Below, piece by piece: positions 7,571 to 18,282 of a stretch of DNA of 64,000 nt. The stretch covers positions 1 to 64,000 of the forward strand of contig JAQXDL010000032.1 of the NCBI GenBank assembly GCA_029251375.1, in the 5' to 3' direction. A program made the position numbers and the translations under genes. The notes under the pieces were generated by a model. That model ran no database searches, was not told where the DNA came from, and saw only the letters and a program-made list of their open reading frames with translations. Position 1 is the first letter of the stretch, and every line of letters starts with the position of its first letter. Origin of the DNA: Pseudomonadales bacterium. GTDB lineage: Bacteria; Pseudomonadota; Gammaproteobacteria; Pseudomonadales; Azotimanducaceae.

Positions 7571-8314
7571 CTAGTCGGCGTTGATCGCTAACAATTCATC
7601 AATAGACTCGAGGCCCAAATATTCTTCAAAGTCTTCAACTCTGTTTTGCATGGCAACAAAGCACATGCGATCGGCGATTTCATTGCCTTCAACGCCGGAG
7701 TGCCCTTTGACATGAACGATGTTGACCTCTTCAGGCAGCTCTTGGTAACAGGCATACATTTTCTTGATCAGCTCAGCATTCGCCAGCACTTCGTTTTTAC
7801 CCCGTGTCCAGTTCTTGCGCTGCCAGCTCTGCGCCCATTGGGTCATGGCTTTTACAGAATAGGACGAGTCGCTAAGGATTTGTACTTTCAAACCCTGGGC
7901 GAGGAAGTCCTTCGCCAGTTGCATGGCTTGGTGCAGTGCATTGAGCTCAGCAGTATTGTTTGTGCCCTGATGATACAGACCGTGATATTTGGCAATGATA
8001 GAGCCTGACTGATACACAGCAATGCCCGATGCGGCAGGTCCTGGGTTGGGATCACAGCCACCGTCACAAAAAATGTGAATATCAAAATTTTCATCGAGCA
8101 CAAAGGCAGCACGTTTTTTCGCAGGCTTTCTCGACTTCGATGTCGCGATGCTTTTGTCGGGTGCTTGGCTAAAGGCAGCTTCGGCCAGCGCGCGGCTTTC
8201 AAAGCCTTTAAACTTTGCGCCCTTATGACCGGCAACAGATTTTTGAGCGGTCGGCCAATCCTCGAAGATGCCTTTGTTTCTGCCTTCCCAAATGACGTAA
8301 TACTTTTTGGCCAC
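7571..8314 (-). CDS. rnhA: Ribonuclease HI with N-terminal viroplasmin-like domain
   Basis: Cleaves RNA in RNA:DNA hybrids in the cytoplasm. With the GTG start at 8312-8314 the protein is 247 residues and begins (M)AKKYYVIWEG, exactly where known hybrid-binding-domain RNases H begin. Residues 1-50 form the viroplasmin/hybrid-binding domain. The RNase H domain carries the four acidic residues: Asp in FCDGGCDPNPG, Glu in NNTAELNAL, Asp in LSDSSYSV, and Asp in HVKGHSGVEGNEIAD. AGGA lies six bases before this GTG. The frame also stays open through an upstream hexanucleotide tract to a GTG at 8453-8455, which would add 47 residues with a Lys-Asn repeat; I consider that tract 5' untranslated. It looks like a bystander within the catabolic cluster. 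Confidence 0.9.
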   Translation of the reverse strand: MAKKYYVIWEGRNKGIFEDWPTAQKSVAGHKGAKFKGFESRALAEAAFSQAPDKSIATSKSRKPAKKRAAFVLDENFDIHIFCDGGCDPNPGPAASGIAVYQSGSIIAKYHGLYHQGTNNTAELNALHQAMQLAKDFLAQGLKVQILSDSSYSVKAMTQWAQSWQRKNWTRGKNEVLANAELIKKMYACYQELPEEVNIVHVKGHSGVEGNEIADRMCFVAMQNRVEDFEEYLGLESIDELLAINAD

Positions 8315-8348
8315 GTTGTTCCTAATGCTGGGGTGTTGTCTTTTATTG

Positions 8349-8414
8349 TTTTTGTTTTTGTTTTTGTTTTTGTTTTTGTTTTTGTTTTTGTTTTTATTTT
8401 TGTTTTTATTTTTG
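8349..8414. repeat. Hexanucleotide tandem repeat ahead of rnhA
   Basis: Eleven consecutive six-base units: seven perfect TTTTTG (8349-8390) and then TTTTTA, TTTTTG, TTTTTA, TTTTTG. On the rnhA strand it is a CAAAAA/TAAAAA tract 35 bases upstream of the preferred GTG start. Slippage would change 5'-leader length without altering the reading frame. Confidence 0.9.
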
Positions 8415-8571
8415 TGCTTTTTTTCTGTGCCTTGTGTTCTTTTGGCAGTTGTCACTATCGCTGATTAATATCGACAAAGCACAGTCTAAATCATTTCTGA
8501 CCTAGACTCAGTGCTTGTGTCGTTTGGATCCTAAATAATTGACAAGGCTTTAGATCGAACCCATTGGCTAG

Positions 8572-9608: not shown

Positions 9609-10826
9609 TTATGCGGCGTGAACCGGTACGCCGCGCTTGATGACTTGGGTAATCGCCTTGTCGTCGGCCAGTGCGGCAATATTCTGCAGCGCATTAATCG
9701 GCGTAATAACCACATCGCCGTTCATGCCGGGTGCCAGACGGCCGATGCTATCGGGCCTTTTTAATATAATGGGATTCATAATGTACATCGCATGCAAGAT
9801 AGATTCGGCTGACTGTATCTCTGCGCGAATCGCAAACTCATGCCGCTGCATCGATTGGGTTTCGCCTATTAGGTCTGTGCCCCAACCCATTTTCACGCCA
9901 GCCTTGTCAGCCAGCGCAAGAGACTCCAGGCCTGATGCCAAGACCGCTTTGTTTTTGACGAGGTTTCGTTCGGGTAATCCCAGACGTTTACCTTCAGATG
10001 CCATAGCCTTAAACGTAACAAGTGTGGGTACCAACCAAGCGTCATGTTGAACCATTACTTTAACCGTTTCGGCATCCAACAAATTGCCATGCTCAATACA
10101 TTTAACGCCGTTGTTGACGGCCATCTGAATCGCCTCGGGTGTGTAAGCATGTGCCGCCACATAGGTCTTGCGATTGGTCGCTTCCTGCACGGCCGCTTGA
10201 ACTTCTGCCACCGTGTATTGAGTACAATCCAGTGGATCCATCGGCGTGGCGACCCCGCCGGAGACATGAATCTTGATAAAGTCGGCGCCGGCGCGGAGCA
10301 CGTGGCGGGCCGCTTTTCTAACAGCGTCAGGACCATCTGCGACGATGCCAAACGCACTGTGGCGCATCTGGCAAGCACAATCAGGCACCGCCAATATGCC
10401 GCTTTCGACATCGCCGTGACCGCCGGTTTGGGAAATCATTAGGTTGGCTTGCACAATATCAGGGCCGCGCGCCATACCAGTGGTGATAGCGCGCTTTAAT
10501 CCAACGACATCGCCGCCGAGGTCACGCACAGTGGTAAAGCCGCGGGCGAGGGTTTCTTCACTTAGTTGTGCCATGGCGATACCGAATTGGACCTCAGTCC
10601 ATTGCGACAAACGCGAGAAATTGAGCGTTGCAAGTCGAAAGTGCACATGTGCATCGATAAAGCCAGGCATCAGGAATTGACCATCTGCATCGACAACGAC
10701 GTCTGCAGATGATGTGTCGGAGTCCGCACTGATGAGGCCGTTTTCAATAACGAGTGTTTCGTTAGGGCGCATGTCCATAGTGTGTGGATCGAAAATTGAA
10801 CCGCCACGAATAATTGTTTTTGTCAT
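9609..10826 (-). CDS. Metal-dependent amidohydrolase (imidazolonepropionase/Xaa-Pro dipeptidase-like)
   Basis: A 405-residue TIM-barrel amidohydrolase. Metal ligands appear in order: HxH in GFIDAHVHF, the bridging Lys region in FIKIHVSGG, His in VAAHAYT, His in CIEHGN and Asp in GWGTDL. A small beta-sandwich formed by both termini (MTKTIIRGG... GDVVITPI) completes the fold. This subgroup hydrolyses N-acyl or dipeptide-like amide bonds; the substrate is not known. It is the first gene of the minus-strand catabolic cluster, with its promoter presumably in the repeat-bearing gap upstream. ATG at 10824-10826. Cytoplasmic, no signal peptide. Confidence 0.87.
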   Translation of the reverse strand: MTKTIIRGGSIFDPHTMDMRPNETLVIENGLISADSDTSSADVVVDADGQFLMPGFIDAHVHFRLATLNFSRLSQWTEVQFGIAMAQLSEETLARGFTTVRDLGGDVVGLKRAITTGMARGPDIVQANLMISQTGGHGDVESGILAVPDCACQMRHSAFGIVADGPDAVRKAARHVLRAGADFIKIHVSGGVATPMDPLDCTQYTVAEVQAAVQEATNRKTYVAAHAYTPEAIQMAVNNGVKCIEHGNLLDAETVKVMVQHDAWLVPTLVTFKAMASEGKRLGLPERNLVKNKAVLASGLESLALADKAGVKMGWGTDLIGETQSMQRHEFAIRAEIQSAESILHAMYIMNPIILKRPDSIGRLAPGMNGDVVITPINALQNIAALADDKAITQVIKRGVPVHAA

Positions 10827-11343
10827 GCGTCGACTCCGAAACTGAATCTGATTGCTTTAGACAGTGTGCCTAAAGTTAGTACACATATAGATAGTACACA
10901 TACAGAAGTAATCTTACGGATAGTACACCGATTACATTGGTGACTGCTATTAGCCGAAAAGCCGGTAAAACAGTTCGATTCCCGTTGGCCCCAATCCCAT
11001 TGGCCTAAATGTGCGTGACAATTTTTAATGAGTCACGTGTGTAGCTAAGTGTTGAAATACTGATGAGAAAATTTGATAGATCGTCGCCGTCGAAGGCGAT
11101 GCCCATAAAGTATTAGCGAAAGGCTGTTTCTGCTGGCAATAAAAGCCCAACTGATAGAGCCTAAACCGCTGTTTTTCTCGTGTTTTTCGGCAGCTTAGTT
11201 ATAAGTAAATAAAGCTTTGTAGTTTTGATACTTTGGGCTACGATGCGCGCCGCCGAATAGCTGTGCCAATAGCTGCAGCACCGGCTTGGCTTAACTGGCT
11301 CGTGGGTAGATGCCTGCGTGCTTCACTTTGAGGTGAACAGATT
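10827..11343. promoter_or_regulatory. Divergent intergenic region between the amidohydrolase and rimK genes, with TAGTACAC repeats
   Basis: A 517-base gap with no convincing reading frame. Three TAGTACAC elements occur near the amidohydrolase start: 10877-10887 and 10892-10902 (both TAGTACACATA, 15 bases apart) and 10921-10929 (29 bases further). This spacing suggests binding sites for a regulator of the catabolic cluster. On the rimK side a weak promoter (TTGTAG at 11217, TACGAT at 11239, spacer 16) precedes the GAGGTG ribosome site at 11331. No regulator gene adjoins. Confidence 0.45.
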
Positions 11344-12537
11344 ATGAAACTAGGTATTCTATCGCGCAGCCCAAATGCTTATAGCACACGACGTCTTAAG
11401 GAGGCGGCTGAGCAGCGTGACCACGAGATAAAAGTCCTCGATACGTTGAAGTTCGCCATCGACTTAGAGCGTGGCTCGCCTGATTTGTACTATCGGCAGA
11501 AACCGTTGAGTAGCTATGACGCTGTGCTGCCGCGCATAGGTGCGTCGATCACCTACTATGGCACGGCGGTGGTTAGACAGTTTCAGGAAATGGATGTCTA
11601 TTGTGCCAATACGGCGCACGGTATTCTCAACTCTCGCGATAAGCTGCGTAGCTTGCAGATACTAAGCCGACATCATATTGGTATACCCAAGACGACCTTC
11701 GTACGTGACAAAAAAGATGTACTGCCAGCCATTGCTAGGGTGGGCGGTGCACCGGTTGTTATAAAACTTATTGAAGGTACGCAGGGCATTGGTGTGTTGC
11801 TGGCAGAGTCGGTCAATCAAGCGGCTTCCATTATCGAGCTGTTGCAAAGTCAAAAGCAGAATGTGCTGATACAAAAGTTTGTTGCCGAAAGTAAAGGTAA
11901 AGACATTCGTGCGTTTGTTGTCGGCGATCAGGTTGTCGCGGCGATGCGACGTGTTGCGCAAGGCCAAGAGTTTCGCAGTAACGTCCATCGAGGTGGGCTT
12001 GCAGAGCCAGTTGAGCTTGATGAACGGTATCGCGAGACCGCCGTGCGTTGTACGCAAATTTTAGGTTTGAGTGTGGCGGGTGTTGACATGTTGGAAGGCG
12101 CAGATGGTCCGCAGGTGATGGAAGTGAACTCCTCGCCAGGACTTGAAGGCATAGAAAAATGTACTGAGCTGGATATCGCCGGCGCCATTATTGACTATAT
12201 CGCCGCGCAGGTAGATTTTCCCGAGATAGACGTGAGGCAAAGGTTAACCGTTAGCCGAGGCTATGGGGTTAGTGAAATTTATGTGCCGGAAGGTTCAAAG
12301 TTTGTTGGCCAAACCATTGTCGGAACCAAGCTGTCCGAAAGTGATATCAATGTGCTGACGCTATACCGCGGCGCTAAAGTCATACCTAATCCGCGAGAAG
12401 GACGGGTACTTGAAGCGGGGGACAAATTGCTTTGTTTTGGCAAGTTGGAAGCGATGCGCGGTATGGTACCGGTTCGAACCAGACGCAAGCGACGCCCAGC
12501 CATTCAAGAATTGGATACCCACATCAATGACGACTGA
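11344..12537 (+). CDS. rimK: RimK-type ATP-grasp glutamate ligase fused to a C-terminal RCK_C (TrkA-C) domain
   Basis: A 397-residue protein. Residues 1 to about 290 form the RimK ATP-grasp ligase, which adds glutamates to the C-terminus of ribosomal protein S6. Visible are MKLGILSRSPNAYSTRRL at the N-terminus, GTQGIGV in the nucleotide loop, and the metal/catalytic segment VMEVNSSPGLEGIE. Typical RimK stops near 300 residues. Here about residues 300-382 match an RCK_C domain (VSEIYVPEGSKFVGQTI through RVLEAGDKLLCFG), the ligand-sensing module of potassium-transport regulators, followed by a basic tail. The ATG at 11344 follows GAGGTG. The gene overlaps the next by 11 bases. The added domain suggests control by a nucleotide or other small ligand (inference). 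Confidence 0.88.
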   Translation: MKLGILSRSPNAYSTRRLKEAAEQRDHEIKVLDTLKFAIDLERGSPDLYYRQKPLSSYDAVLPRIGASITYYGTAVVRQFQEMDVYCANTAHGILNSRDKLRSLQILSRHHIGIPKTTFVRDKKDVLPAIARVGGAPVVIKLIEGTQGIGVLLAESVNQAASIIELLQSQKQNVLIQKFVAESKGKDIRAFVVGDQVVAAMRRVAQGQEFRSNVHRGGLAEPVELDERYRETAVRCTQILGLSVAGVDMLEGADGPQVMEVNSSPGLEGIEKCTELDIAGAIIDYIAAQVDFPEIDVRQRLTVSRGYGVSEIYVPEGSKFVGQTIVGTKLSESDINVLTLYRGAKVIPNPREGRVLEAGDKLLCFGKLEAMRGMVPVRTRRKRRPAIQELDTHINDD

Positions 12538-12994
12538 TATGCCACAAACCCTAGGTTGGCGCGAATGGGTTGGTTTTCCTGACATTGGCATTCCTCAGGT
12601 CAAAGCTAAAGTCGACACGGGTGCCCGTACGAGCAGTCTGCATGCGTTCATGGTTGAAGCCTTTGAACGCGATGGTGTGCCGTGGGTGCGTTTTGATATG
12701 CATCCATTGCAGACAAGCGATAGTGACGTGATTCGCTGCGAGGCGCCTTTAGTTGGTCAGCGCTCTGTGCGCGATTCTGGCGGTCATGAAGAGCTGCGTT
12801 ATGTCATTGAAACAACCATCACGATTGGCGATAGCCGTTTGAAGGCTGAAGTGACATTGACCGACCGGGACACCATGAAGTTTCGAGTACTGCTCGGCCG
12901 CACGGCCATCCGTGGTAAATTTCTGGTTGATTCAGGACGTTCCTATCTGCGTGGTAAGAAGAAGCGCAAGGTTAAGCGTCAACCCAAGGTCTAA
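12527..12994 (+). CDS. rimB: RimK-linked ATP-dependent zinc protease family protein (RimB-like)
   Basis: A 155-residue protein of the RimB/DUF785 family with a retropepsin-like fold. The active-site motif is KAKVDTGARTSSLHA (about residues 27-41). A C-terminal segment VLLGRTAIRGKFLVDSG resembles the second part of the fold, and the tail is strongly basic. In pseudomonads RimB acts with RimK in controlling S6 glutamylation. The start could be the ATG at 12527, overlapping rimK, or the ATG at 12539 immediately after the rimK stop; neither has a strong ribosome site, so coupling is likely. Four bases separate it from the next gene, making a three-gene operon. Confidence 0.83.
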   Translation: MTTDMPQTLGWREWVGFPDIGIPQVKAKVDTGARTSSLHAFMVEAFERDGVPWVRFDMHPLQTSDSDVIRCEAPLVGQRSVRDSGGHEELRYVIETTITIGDSRLKAEVTLTDRDTMKFRVLLGRTAIRGKFLVDSGRSYLRGKKKRKVKRQPKV

Positions 12995-12997
12995 ATT

Positions 12998-14065
12998 ATG
13001 GCAAGCAAAGTACCTGAGCTCAGCATCGGTGGCGTCAGCATCAAAGCTGGCGAGCGGCAAGTGGTTGATGTGCCGGTTGCACCCATGTACACCCATGACG
13101 ATCTGTCGATTTCTGTGCAGGTTGTGCGCGGCAAATCGGCGGGACCGACATTGTTTATTAGCGCCGCGATACACGGTGACGAGATAAACGGCGTTGAAAT
13201 CATTCGTCGGCTGTTGCAGCACAAAGCACTTAAAAATTTACACGGCACGCTGCTCGCGATACCCATCGTCAATGTTTACGGCCTACTTAACCACACCCGT
13301 TACTTGCCAGACGGACGTGATCTGAATCGATCATTTCCCGGCTCTGCTAAAGGCTCTCTGACCGGCCGTGTTGCGCATACCTTTGTACAGGAGATTGTCA
13401 GTAAGAGCACCCACGGTATCGATTTGCACACGGGGTCGCGTCATCGCAGTAACTATCCGCAAATCAGAGCGAATTTGGAGGATCCACAAACCCGTCATAT
13501 GGCGGAGGTCTTTGGTGTGCCGCTGGCGATCAATGCGAAGATTCGCGACGGTTCGTTGCGTGCCTGTGCGGCGGATGCTGGCGTGCCCATTTTGCTTTAC
13601 GAGGCAGGCGAGGCGTTACGTTTTGAGGAAATGTATATTCGCGCGGGGGTTAAGGGCATCATCAGTGTCATGCGCAGTCTTGGCATGTTGCGCAAGAGTC
13701 GTAGTTCAAAGCCACCCAGGCTGCCCATCATTAGCAACAAAACCAGCTGGGTGCGTGCGCCGGAAAGCGGCATTTTACGTACACTGGTTCCCCTCGGCGG
13801 CAACGTCACTGCGGGTCAAACCCTCGCTTTTGTTGCTGACCCCATGGGTTCAACCGAAACGGAAATTGTTGCGCCAGAGGATGGTATGGTCATTGGTCGA
13901 ACTAACTTGCCACTCGTATACGAAGGCGACGCAACCTTTCACATCGCACAGTATGGTCGCAGTGTGGCAACCGTCGAAAAACAAGTTGAACAGTTTCAAG
14001 AAGACAATCAGCCAGAGCCAACGGATATGGATGGCGAAAACCCCAGTGAGGCGCCGATCACCTGA
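12998..14065 (+). CDS. Succinylglutamate desuccinylase/aspartoacylase family zinc hydrolase
   Basis: A 355-residue M14-like zinc carboxypeptidase-fold protein. Zinc ligands are seen in AAIHGDEINGVE (His and Glu) and GIDLHTGSRHR (His), and the catalytic Glu lies in ILLYEAGE. The last 110 residues (from about 245) form the barrel-sandwich domain typical of this subgroup, ending in an acidic tail. AstE-type enzymes remove acyl groups from amino acids. Its tight linkage to rimK and rimB suggests it works on glutamylated or related substrates, but that is inference. The gene is convergent with the arylsulfatase gene. Confidence 0.85.
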   Translation: MASKVPELSIGGVSIKAGERQVVDVPVAPMYTHDDLSISVQVVRGKSAGPTLFISAAIHGDEINGVEIIRRLLQHKALKNLHGTLLAIPIVNVYGLLNHTRYLPDGRDLNRSFPGSAKGSLTGRVAHTFVQEIVSKSTHGIDLHTGSRHRSNYPQIRANLEDPQTRHMAEVFGVPLAINAKIRDGSLRACAADAGVPILLYEAGEALRFEEMYIRAGVKGIISVMRSLGMLRKSRSSKPPRLPIISNKTSWVRAPESGILRTLVPLGGNVTAGQTLAFVADPMGSTETEIVAPEDGMVIGRTNLPLVYEGDATFHIAQYGRSVATVEKQVEQFQEDNQPEPTDMDGENPSEAPIT

Positions 14066-14124
14066 GCCAAGTTTGGCAGGTGTTCATACCTCACATCCAT
14101 AAAAATTTGTCGCGCCCAGTACGC

Positions 14125-16455
14125 TTATTGCGTACTCAAACCCGCCTTAAACTTCCCCTTAGTTTCCGCATCCAAGGTTGCCTTATCTTTACTCGATAGG
14201 CGCTCGAGTGTCACACCAATGATCTTGTCTTTGAATTCGAAGTTGTGAGGATAGGGGCCAACCGCTGAGCCCGCATCTCGGCCAACATCGAAAGTCTCGC
14301 CGCTCATGGAGTAAACCACGGGTACGGTTTTGTCGATGCGACCTTCTGCGACTGTTTGATTGTTAACGAGCAATGTCGCTAGCCCGCCTTTGCCAAACCC
14401 ACCGTCATGTTCGTAGTGCAATTTGATGTTGTGCTGACCTTTGGGTAATGGCTCGCTCGCAGTAATCACTGTGATTTCATGACCAAACCAGTTGTAGACA
14501 AATGAGGGTTTCGCATTTGCGTCGAGATACAGACTCCAGCCCGCCATATTGCCGCCCTGACAAGCGATAACGCCTTGGCTGTGTTGGCCAGATAATTCGA
14601 TATTCGCCTCGATATTGTAAGAGGCATTTTTCAGATTAATGATGGAGCTTTCAGGCATGCGCACGTGCGCTTTGGTATAGGTCATTTTGCTATGACCTTC
14701 TAGCGAATGCGGCACACTATAGTCGCCGGTGCGCGCAGCGGATGCATCGCGCAGTGGATAAACGCCATTCTTTTCAGCCTCTTCATCAAAGCGTGCTTTC
14801 ATTTCAATGAGCTTGTCGGGATGCGAGGCGGCAAGATCATTACCCTGAGAAAAATCATCTTCAATGTTGTATAGCTCCCAAATTTCTTGGGGGCCATCAA
14901 ACTCGTAACCCGCATAACGAATCCACGGCAGGCGGCCGTGGAAACATGAGGCTATCCAACCATCATGATAGATACCCCGGTTACCAAGAATTTCAAAGTA
15001 CTGCGTTTCGTGGGTGCTCTTTAATGCTTCATCAGCAAAGCTATACACCATGCTGTCACCTTGAATGTCGCTTTGGGTAATGCCATTCACTTTCTCGGGG
15101 GCGTCAATGCCGACCAATTCTAGAATCGTCGGCACAACATCAATGACATGATGGAATTGGGATCTTAATCCACCTTGTTCCTTGATTCGGTCTGGCAGTG
15201 ACAACACCATGGCATTTCGGGTGCCACCAAAATGCGAGGCCACTTGTTTCATCCATTGGAACGGTGAGTCGAGGGCCCAGGCCCAGCCCACGTTGAAATG
15301 ATTTTCACATCGGTCCGTACCAAAATCATCCATGTGTTCCAGCAACCATTGCGGATCTTCATGCACGCCATTTTGGAACGAAGGCGCGCTCCATGCACCG
15401 TGCACCGTCCCTTCGGCTGATGCGCCATTATCACCGGTGAGATATATCACCAGTGTGTTGTCGAAACAGTCGAGTTCCGTTACTGCATCAATGACCCGTT
15501 CGACCTGCGCATCTGTGTGGGCCAGAAAGCCACTGAACACTTCCATTAGGCGACTGGCGACGGGTTTGTATTCATCGGGGTAGTCATCCCAGGCTGGAAT
15601 TTCATCAGCTCTAGGGGTCAGTGTTGTGCCTGGCGGAATGACGCCAAGTTCGAGTTGGCGTTCGAAGATTTCTTCCCTGAGCTTGTCCCAACCTTGATCA
15701 AATTGCCCATCGAATTTTTCGATCCATTCTGGCGCAACATGGTGTGGTGCATGAACAGCCGCCGGCGCAAAATAACAGAAGAAGGGTTTGTCAGGAGCTG
15801 AGGCTTTTTGGCGTTGTAGCCACTCAATAGTCTTGTCAGCAAGATCTTCAGTAAAGTGGTAATCCTCTTTGCCGAGATGCGGTTCAATCGGTGTGGTTTG
15901 ATCGTAGGCGGCGGGTTCCCAGTGGGACGCCTCTGCACCGACAATGCCGTAAAAGCGCTCGAATCCCATACCGGTTGGCCATCTGTCGAAGGGTCCGGCG
16001 GGACTCTGCTCCCACGATGGGGTTAAGTGCCATTTGCCGAAACATCCGGTTGAATAGCCGTTCTGCTTGAGTATTTCTGCAATGGTGGCTGACTCAGGCG
16101 GAATAGCGCTATCGTAGGCTGGAAAGCTGTTGGCGATCTCCGTAATGCCGCCCATGTGAACGCTGTGATGATTCCTCCCCGTTAACAAGGATGCGCGTGT
16201 CGGTGAACATAGCGCCGTCGTGTGAAACTGGTTGTAGCTCAGACCCTGTTTAGCAATCTTGTCGACTCCAGGGGTCGGTATTGGTCCGCCAAAGGTGCTG
16301 CAGGAACCAAAGCCAACATCGTCGAGCATCACCAGTAAAACATTTGGCGCGCCCTTTACGTCATTCTTCAGGTTGAGTGGGCTTGGGTCAGAATCAGCGT
16401 ACAAGCGAGTTGCATTGCCCGCGAAAGGCTCTGTCGGTTTAGGGATATCACTCAT
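14125..16455 (-). CDS. Arylsulfatase (formylglycine-dependent, type I)
   Basis: A 776-residue sulfatase. The N-terminal metal site is LVMLDDVGFGS, the formylglycine signature is CSPTRASLLTGRN (Cys to be oxidised by a maturase), and GCFGKWHL and YLTGDNGASAEG complete the active site. Residues beyond about 550 form a C-terminal beta-rich region. It is long compared with the usual 450-600 residues, but this long arylsulfatase subgroup is well known. No signal peptide is seen, so it may be cytoplasmic. The ATG at 16453-16455 (MSDIPKPTEPF) is preferred; another lies at 16485 in frame. It is next to an alkylsulfatase-like gene on the same strand, suggesting sulfate-ester use. Confidence 0.88.
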   Translation of the reverse strand: MSDIPKPTEPFAGNATRLYADSDPSPLNLKNDVKGAPNVLLVMLDDVGFGSCSTFGGPIPTPGVDKIAKQGLSYNQFHTTALCSPTRASLLTGRNHHSVHMGGITEIANSFPAYDSAIPPESATIAEILKQNGYSTGCFGKWHLTPSWEQSPAGPFDRWPTGMGFERFYGIVGAEASHWEPAAYDQTTPIEPHLGKEDYHFTEDLADKTIEWLQRQKASAPDKPFFCYFAPAAVHAPHHVAPEWIEKFDGQFDQGWDKLREEIFERQLELGVIPPGTTLTPRADEIPAWDDYPDEYKPVASRLMEVFSGFLAHTDAQVERVIDAVTELDCFDNTLVIYLTGDNGASAEGTVHGAWSAPSFQNGVHEDPQWLLEHMDDFGTDRCENHFNVGWAWALDSPFQWMKQVASHFGGTRNAMVLSLPDRIKEQGGLRSQFHHVIDVVPTILELVGIDAPEKVNGITQSDIQGDSMVYSFADEALKSTHETQYFEILGNRGIYHDGWIASCFHGRLPWIRYAGYEFDGPQEIWELYNIEDDFSQGNDLAASHPDKLIEMKARFDEEAEKNGVYPLRDASAARTGDYSVPHSLEGHSKMTYTKAHVRMPESSIINLKNASYNIEANIELSGQHSQGVIACQGGNMAGWSLYLDANAKPSFVYNWFGHEITVITASEPLPKGQHNIKLHYEHDGGFGKGGLATLLVNNQTVAEGRIDKTVPVVYSMSGETFDVGRDAGSAVGPYPHNFEFKDKIIGVTLERLSSKDKATLDAETKGKFKAGLSTQ

Positions 16456-16494
16456 TGCTTTTATTGGTTTCCTTGTCTTTTGCATCGATTTGTT

Positions 16495-16521
16495 GATGCC
16501 TCTTTAGAGGCATCTTTTTTT
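16495..16521 (+). terminator. Hairpin plus T-run of terminator type, oriented against both neighbouring genes
   Basis: Perfect 8-bp stem GATGCCTC (16495-16502) and GAGGCATC (16507-16514) with a TTTA loop, followed on the plus strand by seven T. Both flanking genes are on the minus strand, so it would stop antisense transcription. On the minus strand the same hairpin would sit in the arylsulfatase leader. Confidence 0.55.
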
Positions 16522-16548
16522 GTCGACGATCTTGTCTAGACGACAGAA

Positions 16549-18282
16549 TTATTGATTAAACGATGGATGATCAAAGCAACTAAAGAACCGAGCAATCGCT
16601 GCAGCATCATCGTTGGTTTGAATTCTTCCTTCCGTAAGGGCTGCTGCAAATGTTAGCTTGCCGCCCAATATTTTGGCCCAATCGGCATGTGTCAGGCTGA
16701 TTTGCTGTTGCGCATCTGCACCGCTGGTGGGTATTGCTACACCACCTCTGATTTTCAACCCTGTGCTTGTGCCATCGTCAAACAGCCACCGTACTTCCAT
16801 GTCGAGATCAAGGCTTCGTTCAGGCGCCAACAGTACGCGCAGTACTTTAATGAAAGTTGTCGCTGGTTTGGCGAGAACTTCGTCTACTCTAAATCGATGC
16901 TGCCGAAATCGGCTGAGATCTAATTTGCCTTCCAGTTCGAGCGCTCTGGTTAAACACCAATTTCTTACATTGGCTGATGTGGTGCGTTGTGCAATTGTCC
17001 GTACAACGTTGGCGAGTGCGTCTTTGTTGCTTTGATCATCGGTGGCTTTTTCAAGCCAGGCGCCCAACTCAAGTGCCCAGCGATGATCGTCTTCTTGCAT
17101 CGCCTGCTGCATCATTGCCAGTACTTTGTTGGCGCCGCCGAACCCTGCCACGATCCGCGTTGCACGATCGGTCGGTGCCAGAGGGAAGAGATTAGCGACA
17201 TCTTCATCAAACCAACCGAACAAGCCGGCGTGAATCTGCTTGACGTGATGTTCAACCAAGCCATAGAACTGGCGGGTGAAATAGGTGCGGTTGAAGCGTT
17301 CAGGTAGTTGAACAAAACGGGTTAACTCATCCAAGCTTAAGCCTTTGTTGGCGCCTCGCACGGTTTGATCCCAAAGTAACTGAATGGAATCACGATAGTC
17401 GACGATCACATCATTGATGTCCGCTTTGCCACTAAAAGGTGGTCCGTGCGCGCCGAGCAAATGATCTGCACCAAGTTCGGCCATGTGATCGAGCCCGGAT
17501 AGAAGTATTCGTGGATCACGGTACTCTTCGCCGCGAATCGCAAACACGTTAAACAAGGCGGGCCAGACCAAATTGTTGACGCACACGCCTAATTCAGGAA
17601 ACCAAATGGTGGCGGAGTCGTCGGCATCTGACGGTGCATGTGTGAATTCAACTTTAAGACCTGCAATATCAGCTTTCAACGTTTCATCGAAGCTATGCGT
17701 GACAGGTAAATGTCCATGGGTAAAAGGTGCGTGATCACTATTTCTGAAAAATTTGCCCAAGCCGACATTAACGAGTCCGTCGTCACTTTCGGTAGGCATT
17801 GAAATAGCAAATTGATGTACCAGACCACGCATGATTCGAGGTCCGACCTCGCCGCCATAACGCGCGATGTTGCCAGCGATGCGGCTATGACCGTAAACAG
17901 GAAGAGACTCTGCATTGCCAGCATCTTTTAATTCCGCAAGCAGCGCAGTTGTGCCATTGACGTAATGAAAGTGCGTATACAAGCAAGCAACCACAGGGGC
18001 TGAAGTGAATTTTCTCAACTCATCCAGCGCTTCCTGCATTTCTTCAACGCATTCGCCCGTATCAATGCAGATGAGCCCCTCGGGACCTTCAATAAAGGTT
18101 TGATTTGATAGGCCATTGCCGACCATACACCAAACATTGTCACGCACCTGGTAGAGCTTGCGTACAAGTCTTTCTGAATGGCTTATATGGTCAGGGTGAG
18201 CAAGCTGATGCAGCGGACCGACGGCAGGATCAATGTTGCTAATCGATGCGGGGAGTTCCGACGAGTGGGTTTGGCTGGGCAT
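16549..18282 (-). CDS. Alkylsulfatase-like metallo-beta-lactamase-fold protein with altered metal motif
   Basis: A 577-residue protein with the SdsA/YjcS layout: MBL domain (about 35-290), alkylsulfatase dimerisation domain (about 310-440), and an SCP2-like C-terminal domain (about 465-575). These enzymes cleave sulfate from alkyl sulfates. The usual zinc motif HxHxDH is here THFHYVNG: the two first His remain but the Asp and third His positions are Val and Asn. Other later ligands (LLGAHGPPF) are present. The enzyme may therefore bind one metal or have changed activity. No signal peptide is seen, whereas many SdsA proteins are exported. Same strand as, and 93 bases upstream of, the arylsulfatase gene. 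Confidence 0.8.
   Translation of the reverse strand: MPSQTHSSELPASISNIDPAVGPLHQLAHPDHISHSERLVRKLYQVRDNVWCMVGNGLSNQTFIEGPEGLICIDTGECVEEMQEALDELRKFTSAPVVACLYTHFHYVNGTTALLAELKDAGNAESLPVYGHSRIAGNIARYGGEVGPRIMRGLVHQFAISMPTESDDGLVNVGLGKFFRNSDHAPFTHGHLPVTHSFDETLKADIAGLKVEFTHAPSDADDSATIWFPELGVCVNNLVWPALFNVFAIRGEEYRDPRILLSGLDHMAELGADHLLGAHGPPFSGKADINDVIVDYRDSIQLLWDQTVRGANKGLSLDELTRFVQLPERFNRTYFTRQFYGLVEHHVKQIHAGLFGWFDEDVANLFPLAPTDRATRIVAGFGGANKVLAMMQQAMQEDDHRWALELGAWLEKATDDQSNKDALANVVRTIAQRTTSANVRNWCLTRALELEGKLDLSRFRQHRFRVDEVLAKPATTFIKVLRVLLAPERSLDLDMEVRWLFDDGTSTGLKIRGGVAIPTSGADAQQQISLTHADWAKILGGKLTFAAALTEGRIQTNDDAAAIARFFSCFDHPSFNQ

Follow-up and report, generated by a model that had tools for sequence, protein, structure and literature searches.

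A RimK-type glutamate ligase fused to a potassium-channel-type RCK_C domain, possibly under ionic or osmotic control

RimK modifies ribosomal protein S6 and also makes poly-alpha-L-glutamate peptides (PMC12239564). In the RimABK system of Pseudomonas it is accompanied by the protease RimB and, in plant-associated species, by RimA, a c-di-GMP phosphodiesterase; the rim operon of P. aeruginosa is without rimA (PMC10092738). Cyclic-di-GMP stimulates the RimK of P. fluorescens (PMC7343187) and those of P. aeruginosa and P. syringae (PMC10092738). RimK is also found as part of a larger chain, the RimBK hybrid of Desulfotalea psychrophila (DP2392, PMC11957791). A parallel is the RloABC system of P. 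aeruginosa: its ATP-grasp protein, RloC, is 24% identical to RimK, and Rlo retropepsins are needed under hypoosmotic stress (PMC12239564).

Here we describe a RimK that carries a domain of another kind. The window (the whole stretch analysed, 64,000 nucleotides of contig JAQXDL010000032.1 from a Pseudomonadales bacterium) contains, at 11344-12537 on the forward strand, an open reading frame that begins with ATG, encodes 397 amino acids before its stop and has no internal stop. Residues 1-286 (11344-12201) form the catalytic core, within which Pfam finds Rimk_N at residues 1-94 (E 4.7e-38) and the RimK ATP-grasp domain at residues 98-286 (E 9.6e-60). The TIGR00768 model places the protein in the RimK family of alpha-L-glutamate ligases (259.1 bits, cut-off 143.4); its score against NF007764, the ribosomal protein S6--L-glutamate ligase equivalog, is just under the curated cut-off (326.5 bits, cut-off 331). 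All seven of the residues that contact glutamate in RimK (S7, R8, S14, R64, S68, R189 and N262; PMC10092738) are present in the window protein. Six of the seven are invariant across an alignment of 82 fused sequences; position 8, arginine in the window, is cysteine in 55 of them.

The core is followed by a linker, residues 288-309 (AQVDFPEIDVRQRLTVSRGYGV; 12205-12270), that is nearly invariant in the 82 fused sequences with the exception of positions 297, 303 and 305. Residues 310-371 (12271-12456) match TrkA_C (PF02080) with an E value of 5.1e-10 and 39.6 bits, against a cut-off of 27; linker included, the RCK_C unit spans about residues 288-376. The chain ends in a basic tail, residues 372-397 (12457-12534), in which P376, R383, P385 and L390 are conserved across the same alignment. 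Inside the domain D334, N336, L338-R342, P348-P350, R354, E357, D360 and G366 are highly conserved as well, among 82 sequences that were chosen for similarity. The sequence-only reading had recognised a RimK fused to a TrkA-type RCK_C domain in the C-terminal 100 residues and had proposed a domain search of residues 300-382; that search returned TrkA_C over its cut-off, the placement was right to within a few residues, and the fusion is borne out by the Pfam match together with the fold comparisons that follow.

A profile built from five fused C-termini matches known structures by sequence alone (MthK, E 0.0011; KtrA, 0.0035; KtrC, 0.0099). An AlphaFold model of the isolated domain has a mean pLDDT of 69.9, with block means of 79-89 at model residues 21-80; a full-length model (pLDDT 59, built on 48 close sequences) was set aside. 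Foldseek aligns the modelled domain to the RCK_C chain of MthK with an E value of 8e-5, and 49 of the 50 rows listed are, by title, potassium channel or transporter proteins, the remaining one having no assigned function. VIA-align gives the same picture: among 50 rows listed (Z 8.9-11.4), 46 are potassium channel, transporter, antiporter or putative channel proteins by title, two are BusR (7wjg, 7b5u) and two carry titles without an assigned function (2bkn, 2bko). GsuK leads (rmsd 3.6-8.3), followed by KhtT, KtrA, KtrC, TrkA and MthK; KhtT, KtrA, KtrC and TrkA chains score Z 10.4-10.9. Structures with bound c-di-AMP are among those matched (KhtT 7agv, Z 10.9; KtrA 4xtt, Z 10.1; BusR 7b5u, Z 8.9). 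The C-terminal domain is a true RCK_C/TrkA_C domain. We found no paper on a RimK with RCK_C or TrkA-C in the open-licence literature, and the term 'TrkA' is absent from the main text of PMC10092738, PMC7343187 and PMC11957791. The RimK-RCK_C fusion is a real family that we have not found described in that literature.

In the window's own genome the fused copy is the one RimK; a second ATP-grasp-like match (at C6) shows 28% identity (E 4.5e-5). Among 58 genomes of the genus, family and order, the window's own counted, a RimK match at E 1e-20 is present in 23. Five genomes contain a complete fused copy: the window's own (G000), G039, G012, G015 and G042, the last four being 82-84% identical. Two further genomes (G011, G021) hold partial or broken fused copies, and the other RimK matches in this set are core only, at 44-57% identity, with one weak relative at 27%. 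In search of an empty site we compared the 7.9-kb DNA of the locus with the other four genomes of the genus, where it is unmatched. At the level of the class, 4 of 369 sampled genomes (again including the window's own) have a strong match; two weaker ones lie in permease-like proteins.

To follow the domain further, 84,980 species genomes were scanned. At tblastn E <= 1e-3 the C-terminal region has an encoded relative in 247 stretches, and the 80 best of these were retained. Core and domain share one frame in 79 of these 80, among them L106, which as called starts at residue 24; the remaining locus (L039) is cut by a contig end. This rules against an assembly or frame artefact as the source of the fusion. 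There is some redundancy in the collection, since L047 and L108 duplicate the genes of G039 and G015, and two assemblies are each represented by a pair of loci (L045/L090 and L094/L106). Named hosts include Halieaceae, Microbulbifer, Granulosicoccaceae, Neptunomonas, Vibrio, Planctobacterium, two Pirellulaceae and a 'Deltaproteobacteria' MAG. Plasmids and phages yielded no fused copy: 42 records (E <= 1e-30) and 24 records (E <= 1e-10) hold RimK relatives, and all of these fall short of 80% query coverage.

A phylogenetic tree was built from residues 1-287 only, and therefore RCK_C itself could not drive the grouping. In this tree 32 fused cores occupy one side of a branch with support 100/100 and a stem of 1.27 substitutions per site, and branches within the crown are mostly shorter than 0.2. 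Among the copies examined, the topology fits a single origin of the fusion. Myxococcota-labelled and Vibrio copies are placed among those of other gammaproteobacteria, which suggests horizontal transfer of the fused gene, mis-binned MAG contigs being the alternative. Mean core identity is 86% in 82 fused sequences and 72% in 23 canonical RimKs (two long-branch canonical rows were left out), and 26 near-fixed differences set the two groups apart. The short crown, the core contrast and the degree of conservation are all overstated to some extent, because the fused sequences come from the top-scoring third of the 247 stretches, with a few added, and the canonical ones span a broader taxonomic range. 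Within these limits, the gain of the domain was more than a simple addition, for the core changed as well.

The fused gene is followed on the same strand by two others. A gene for a RimB-type retropepsin-like protease of 151 aa (12539-12994; PF05618, E 9.7e-42, with a DTG motif) begins 1 bp past the stop of rimK, and scores 137.4 bits, under the RimB equivalog cut-off of 200. The start of an AstE/aspartoacylase-type gene (12998-14065, 355 aa; PF24827, E 1e-39) lies 3 bp after the rimB stop; its product has an HGDE motif, which we take to be the zinc motif. Both proteins thus retain a motif typical of their class of enzyme. With such spacing the three genes are probably read as a single transcript. 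Sigma-70-like and terminator-like sites show no excess over shuffled sequence in 10800-14200, and no Rfam family matches the window at gathering score. On the opposite strand, after the operon, lie genes for a sulfatase and an alkyl-sulfatase-type protein (14125-18282). That strand also encodes, at 7571-8455, an RNase H1 that has an N-terminal Cauli_VI domain with a run of Lys-Asn dipeptides before it; the run stems from 11.7 copies of a 6-bp tandem repeat at 8346-8415.

Genes for RimB, RimK and AstE cluster around ordinary RimK too in this bacterial order, and such clusters are also found on Acaryochloris and Vibrio plasmids. RimB lies within 5 kb of 27 of 33 canonical RimK loci and 38 of the 80 best fused loci; the figures for AstE are 19 of 33 and 37 of 80. 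Where 3.5 kb is available on both sides (62 fused loci), RimB is present in 28, AstE in 28, both in 21 and neither in 27. The triad, occurring as it does beside ordinary RimK, is therefore older than the fusion, or at least not special to it. The AstE-type partner suggests a second remover of glutamate chains. The pairing of glutamylating ligases with M14 deglutamylases in eukaryotes would be a parallel to RimK with AstE. One fused locus (L037, 6434-7972, +) encodes an AstE-type protein with a long N-terminal extension and, by eye, a signal-peptide-like start, the form in the window being of 355 aa. A Vibrio europaeus plasmid (L254) carries in a row genes for a diguanylate cyclase, a RimK of 301 aa without the domain, AstE-type and RimB-type proteins and a magnesium transporter.

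Beyond these partners, the neighborhood of the fused genes is rich in ion transport. Neighbors within 5 kb of 79 fused loci were clustered and ten cluster representatives were named by Pfam. The largest clusters are AstE (36 loci), RimB (33), the MscS channel (22), MgtE (10) and CorA (10); then come an M16 peptidase and a Glu/Leu dehydrogenase (7 each, both from Microbulbifer), a Na/Ca exchanger, a PEP-utilising GAF protein and a short-chain dehydrogenase (6 each), and a Na/Pi cotransporter and a LysR regulator (4 each). Five ion families (MscS, CorA, MgtE, Na/Ca and Na/Pi) were then counted by homology search, the fused loci being those flanked by 3 kb or more on both sides. One or more of the five is present within 5 kb at 33 of the 63 fused loci, 6 of the 31 canonical RimKs and 0 of the 7 RimBK hybrids; among displaced 11.2-kb windows, which were drawn from 26 of the 36 fused genomes searched, the count is 1 of 40 (Fisher p 2e-8 against the fused loci). 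With near relatives collapsed by hand (nine Microbulbifer loci to one, three near-copies to one), the fused count of 23 of 53 still exceeds that of displaced windows (p 2.7e-6) and, modestly, that of canonical RimK (p 0.033). The choice of families was itself guided by what was prominent around the fused genes, so the contrast is inflated and amounts to a lead rather than a blind test; the M16 peptidase, Glu/Leu dehydrogenase, GAF protein and short-chain dehydrogenase clusters recur there too.

MscS alone is found at 19 of 63 fused and 5 of 31 canonical loci (p 0.21; collapsed, p 0.04 against displaced windows); given the lack of a significant difference from canonical RimK, some of the signal may be a property of RimK systems in general. 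Certain ordinary RimK genes (L275, L285 and L267, all without RCK_C) have MscS and CorA neighbors within 5 kb as well, and the ion link may thus be older than the fusion. The ion partner varies from genus to genus, which argues against one inherited arrangement. At the window's own locus none of the five families is found within about 5 kb. The MscS, CorA, MgtE and Na/Ca neighbors were considered as glutamylation substrates and rejected, their C-termini having no Glu run. The identifier K05844 stands for RimK. Glutamate-modifying genes including K05844 are commoner in brackish than in marine relatives, as are those for a mechanosensitive channel (K03282) and magnesium uptake (K03284) (PMC10219603).

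Our best reading is that the RCK_C domain makes polyglutamate synthesis depend on ionic or osmotic conditions. RCK_C domains would pair up, and a small ligand or ion that reports the ionic or osmotic state would bind in or near the dimer; the resulting change would travel along the nearly invariant linker (288-309) into the RimK core, which would switch polyglutamate synthesis up or down, with RimB and AstE trimming or removing the product. For this explanation as a whole, with an alpha-L-glutamate ligase gated by its fused RCK_C domain, in an operon with a RimB-type retropepsin and a probable AstE-type metallo-hydrolase, we put the probability at roughly 0.42. The mechanism draws on conservation only in part, and that part of the argument is weakened by the selection of the best 80 loci.

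Direct ligand control of RimK, which the sequence-only reading had put forward, is a sound inference from a real RCK_C domain and from known members of the class that bind small ligands; such control is likely. The ligands it had in mind, cyclic dinucleotides, have fared less well against genomes and published data. RCK_C has a known link to one cyclic dinucleotide, c-di-AMP, and the modelled domain does resemble the c-di-AMP-bound domains of KhtT 7agv, KtrA 4xtt and BusR 7b5u; however, a search for diadenylate cyclase (PF02457) came up empty for the window's genome and for 33 of 36 other fused genomes (assemblies whose completeness is not stated), the three exceptions being the two Pirellulaceae and the 'Deltaproteobacteria' MAG. 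This led us to reject c-di-AMP as ligand for most hosts, and a fused family that binds it in the manner of KtrA, KhtT and BusR is very improbable, Pseudomonas RimK moreover not being stimulated by c-di-AMP (PMC7343187, PMC10092738). Binding of c-di-GMP, by which S6 glutamylation would be tied to the motile/sessile switch, also strikes us as improbable. It has in its favor the published stimulation of Pseudomonas RimK (PMC7343187, PMC10092738), whose site PMC10092738 gives as unresolved, and the diguanylate cyclase in the V. europaeus plasmid row, albeit beside a RimK that lacks RCK_C. Yet the stimulated pseudomonad enzymes, to which the earlier reading had pointed, include chains too short for an RCK_C domain (309 and 314 aa in the crystallised P. 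aeruginosa and P. syringae proteins, PDB 7QYR/7QYS), BusR, itself an RCK_C protein, is unresponsive to c-di-GMP (PMC8517857), and a crude motif scan finds GGDEF in a neighbor at only 3 of the 80 best fused loci. The corresponding EAL scan marks a neighbor at three other loci of the 80, one of them an MgtE protein. Other RCK proteins are controlled by ions and adenine nucleotides, which would be natural alternatives here, and an ionic or osmotic signal is our choice over cyclic dinucleotides as the better bet. The domain might instead sense nothing and serve in dimerisation or docking, either assembling RimK or holding RimB and AstE. That the linker is conserved above much of the RCK_C fold is what a contact surface would lead one to expect, but the interior of the domain is well conserved also, albeit in a similarity-chosen set, and the enrichment of ion genes would be left unexplained; we consider a pure dimerisation or docking role unlikely, if far from negligible.

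The substrate is a separate question. Ribosomal S6, which the sequence-only reading named, is unproven for the fused clade, given the stem of 1.27 substitutions and S6 tails that do not track RimK type; since RimK both makes polymer and modifies S6, the candidates are S6, free polymer and other proteins. The S6 tails of 91 loci were compared (one was dropped because its frame ran off the stretch). The last residue is Glu in 8 of 18 genomes with a fused copy only, 9 of 19 with fused and canonical copies, 6 of 6 with fused and RimBK-like copies, 6 of 13 with canonical copies only, 2 of 2 with RimBK only and 12 of 32 without a RimK match at E 1e-20. These counts show no usable difference, so the S6 tail is uninformative on substrate either way. 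A second match at E 1e-40, canonical or RimBK-like, is present in 22 of the 36 fused genomes, and the fused copy stands alone in 14. RimBK make-up was checked in six loci (L243-L248) from four of the fused genomes: besides the fused RimK, Chromatiales G443 and Granulosicoccaceae G460 have two hybrids each, and Microbulbifer G431 and G432 one each. It may be that the fused clade abandoned S6 and makes free poly-alpha-glutamate or modifies another protein. The long stem and the 26 near-fixed differences from canonical RimK would fit such a shift, as would the second RimK-type match in those 22 genomes and the independence of S6 tails from RimK type, with the tail of G003 (a genome of the same genus, 87% complete, with no RimK match at E 1e-20) almost equal to that of the window's genome, G000. 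Against it stands the glutamate site, six of its seven residues being invariant in the 82 fused sequences, while R8, kept in the window, is cysteine in 55. On balance we find the abandonment of S6 doubtful.

The ionic or osmotic reading can be carried one step further, though as a tentative extension that we think is rather unlikely to hold in full: a separate RimK clade, whose spread probably owes in part to horizontal transfer, would act as an ion- or turgor-sensing synthase that sets the amount of poly-alpha-glutamate, free or protein-bound, via RCK_C. If true, an ionic signal of the kind read by potassium channels would set polyglutamate alongside MscS, CorA, MgtE and Na/Ca partners, and glutamate polymer chemistry would be linked to osmotic control. 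In this family RimK has acquired a known regulatory module, apparently a single time, and the combination has persisted across bacterial families and, it seems, phyla. Removal of the domain offers a direct test of ligand control over polyglutamylation, and the neighborhood data turn a vague 'environmental' role into an ionic or osmotic one that can be tested.

How does this locus compare with known systems? RimABK of Pseudomonas shares with it the RimK core, the glutamate-site residues and an adjoining RimB-type gene. The crystallised Pseudomonas RimKs lack RCK_C, whereas the RimK described here has one; the third gene of RimABK is rimA, whereas here it is of AstE type (PF24827) and RimA is absent from the operon. 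The RimBK hybrid resembles our protein in that RimK is fused to a partner domain, but its partner is an N-terminal RimB protease; here the partner is a C-terminal RCK_C domain, RimB is a separate gene, and Pfam finds no RimB domain on the window's RimK chain. RloABC (PMC12239564) offers a parallel in its combination of a retropepsin with an ATP-grasp protein and in its link to osmotic stress; the Rlo protease, however, is secreted, and a 7-TM inactive transglutaminase takes the place of AstE. From the side of the domain, RCK_C also lies inside a larger protein in the SLC13-type permeases L114 and L115 (E 1.6e-9 and 8.7e-9, the only two matches at E <= 1e-8 beyond the strong fused ones in the class scan; permease type assigned by reading the sequence), where the carrier is a membrane permease. 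Finally, the fold is common to the RCK_C domains of KtrA, KtrC, TrkA, MthK, KhtT and BusR, but those carriers are potassium channels, transport proteins or a transcription factor, whereas here the carrier is an enzyme that joins amino acids.
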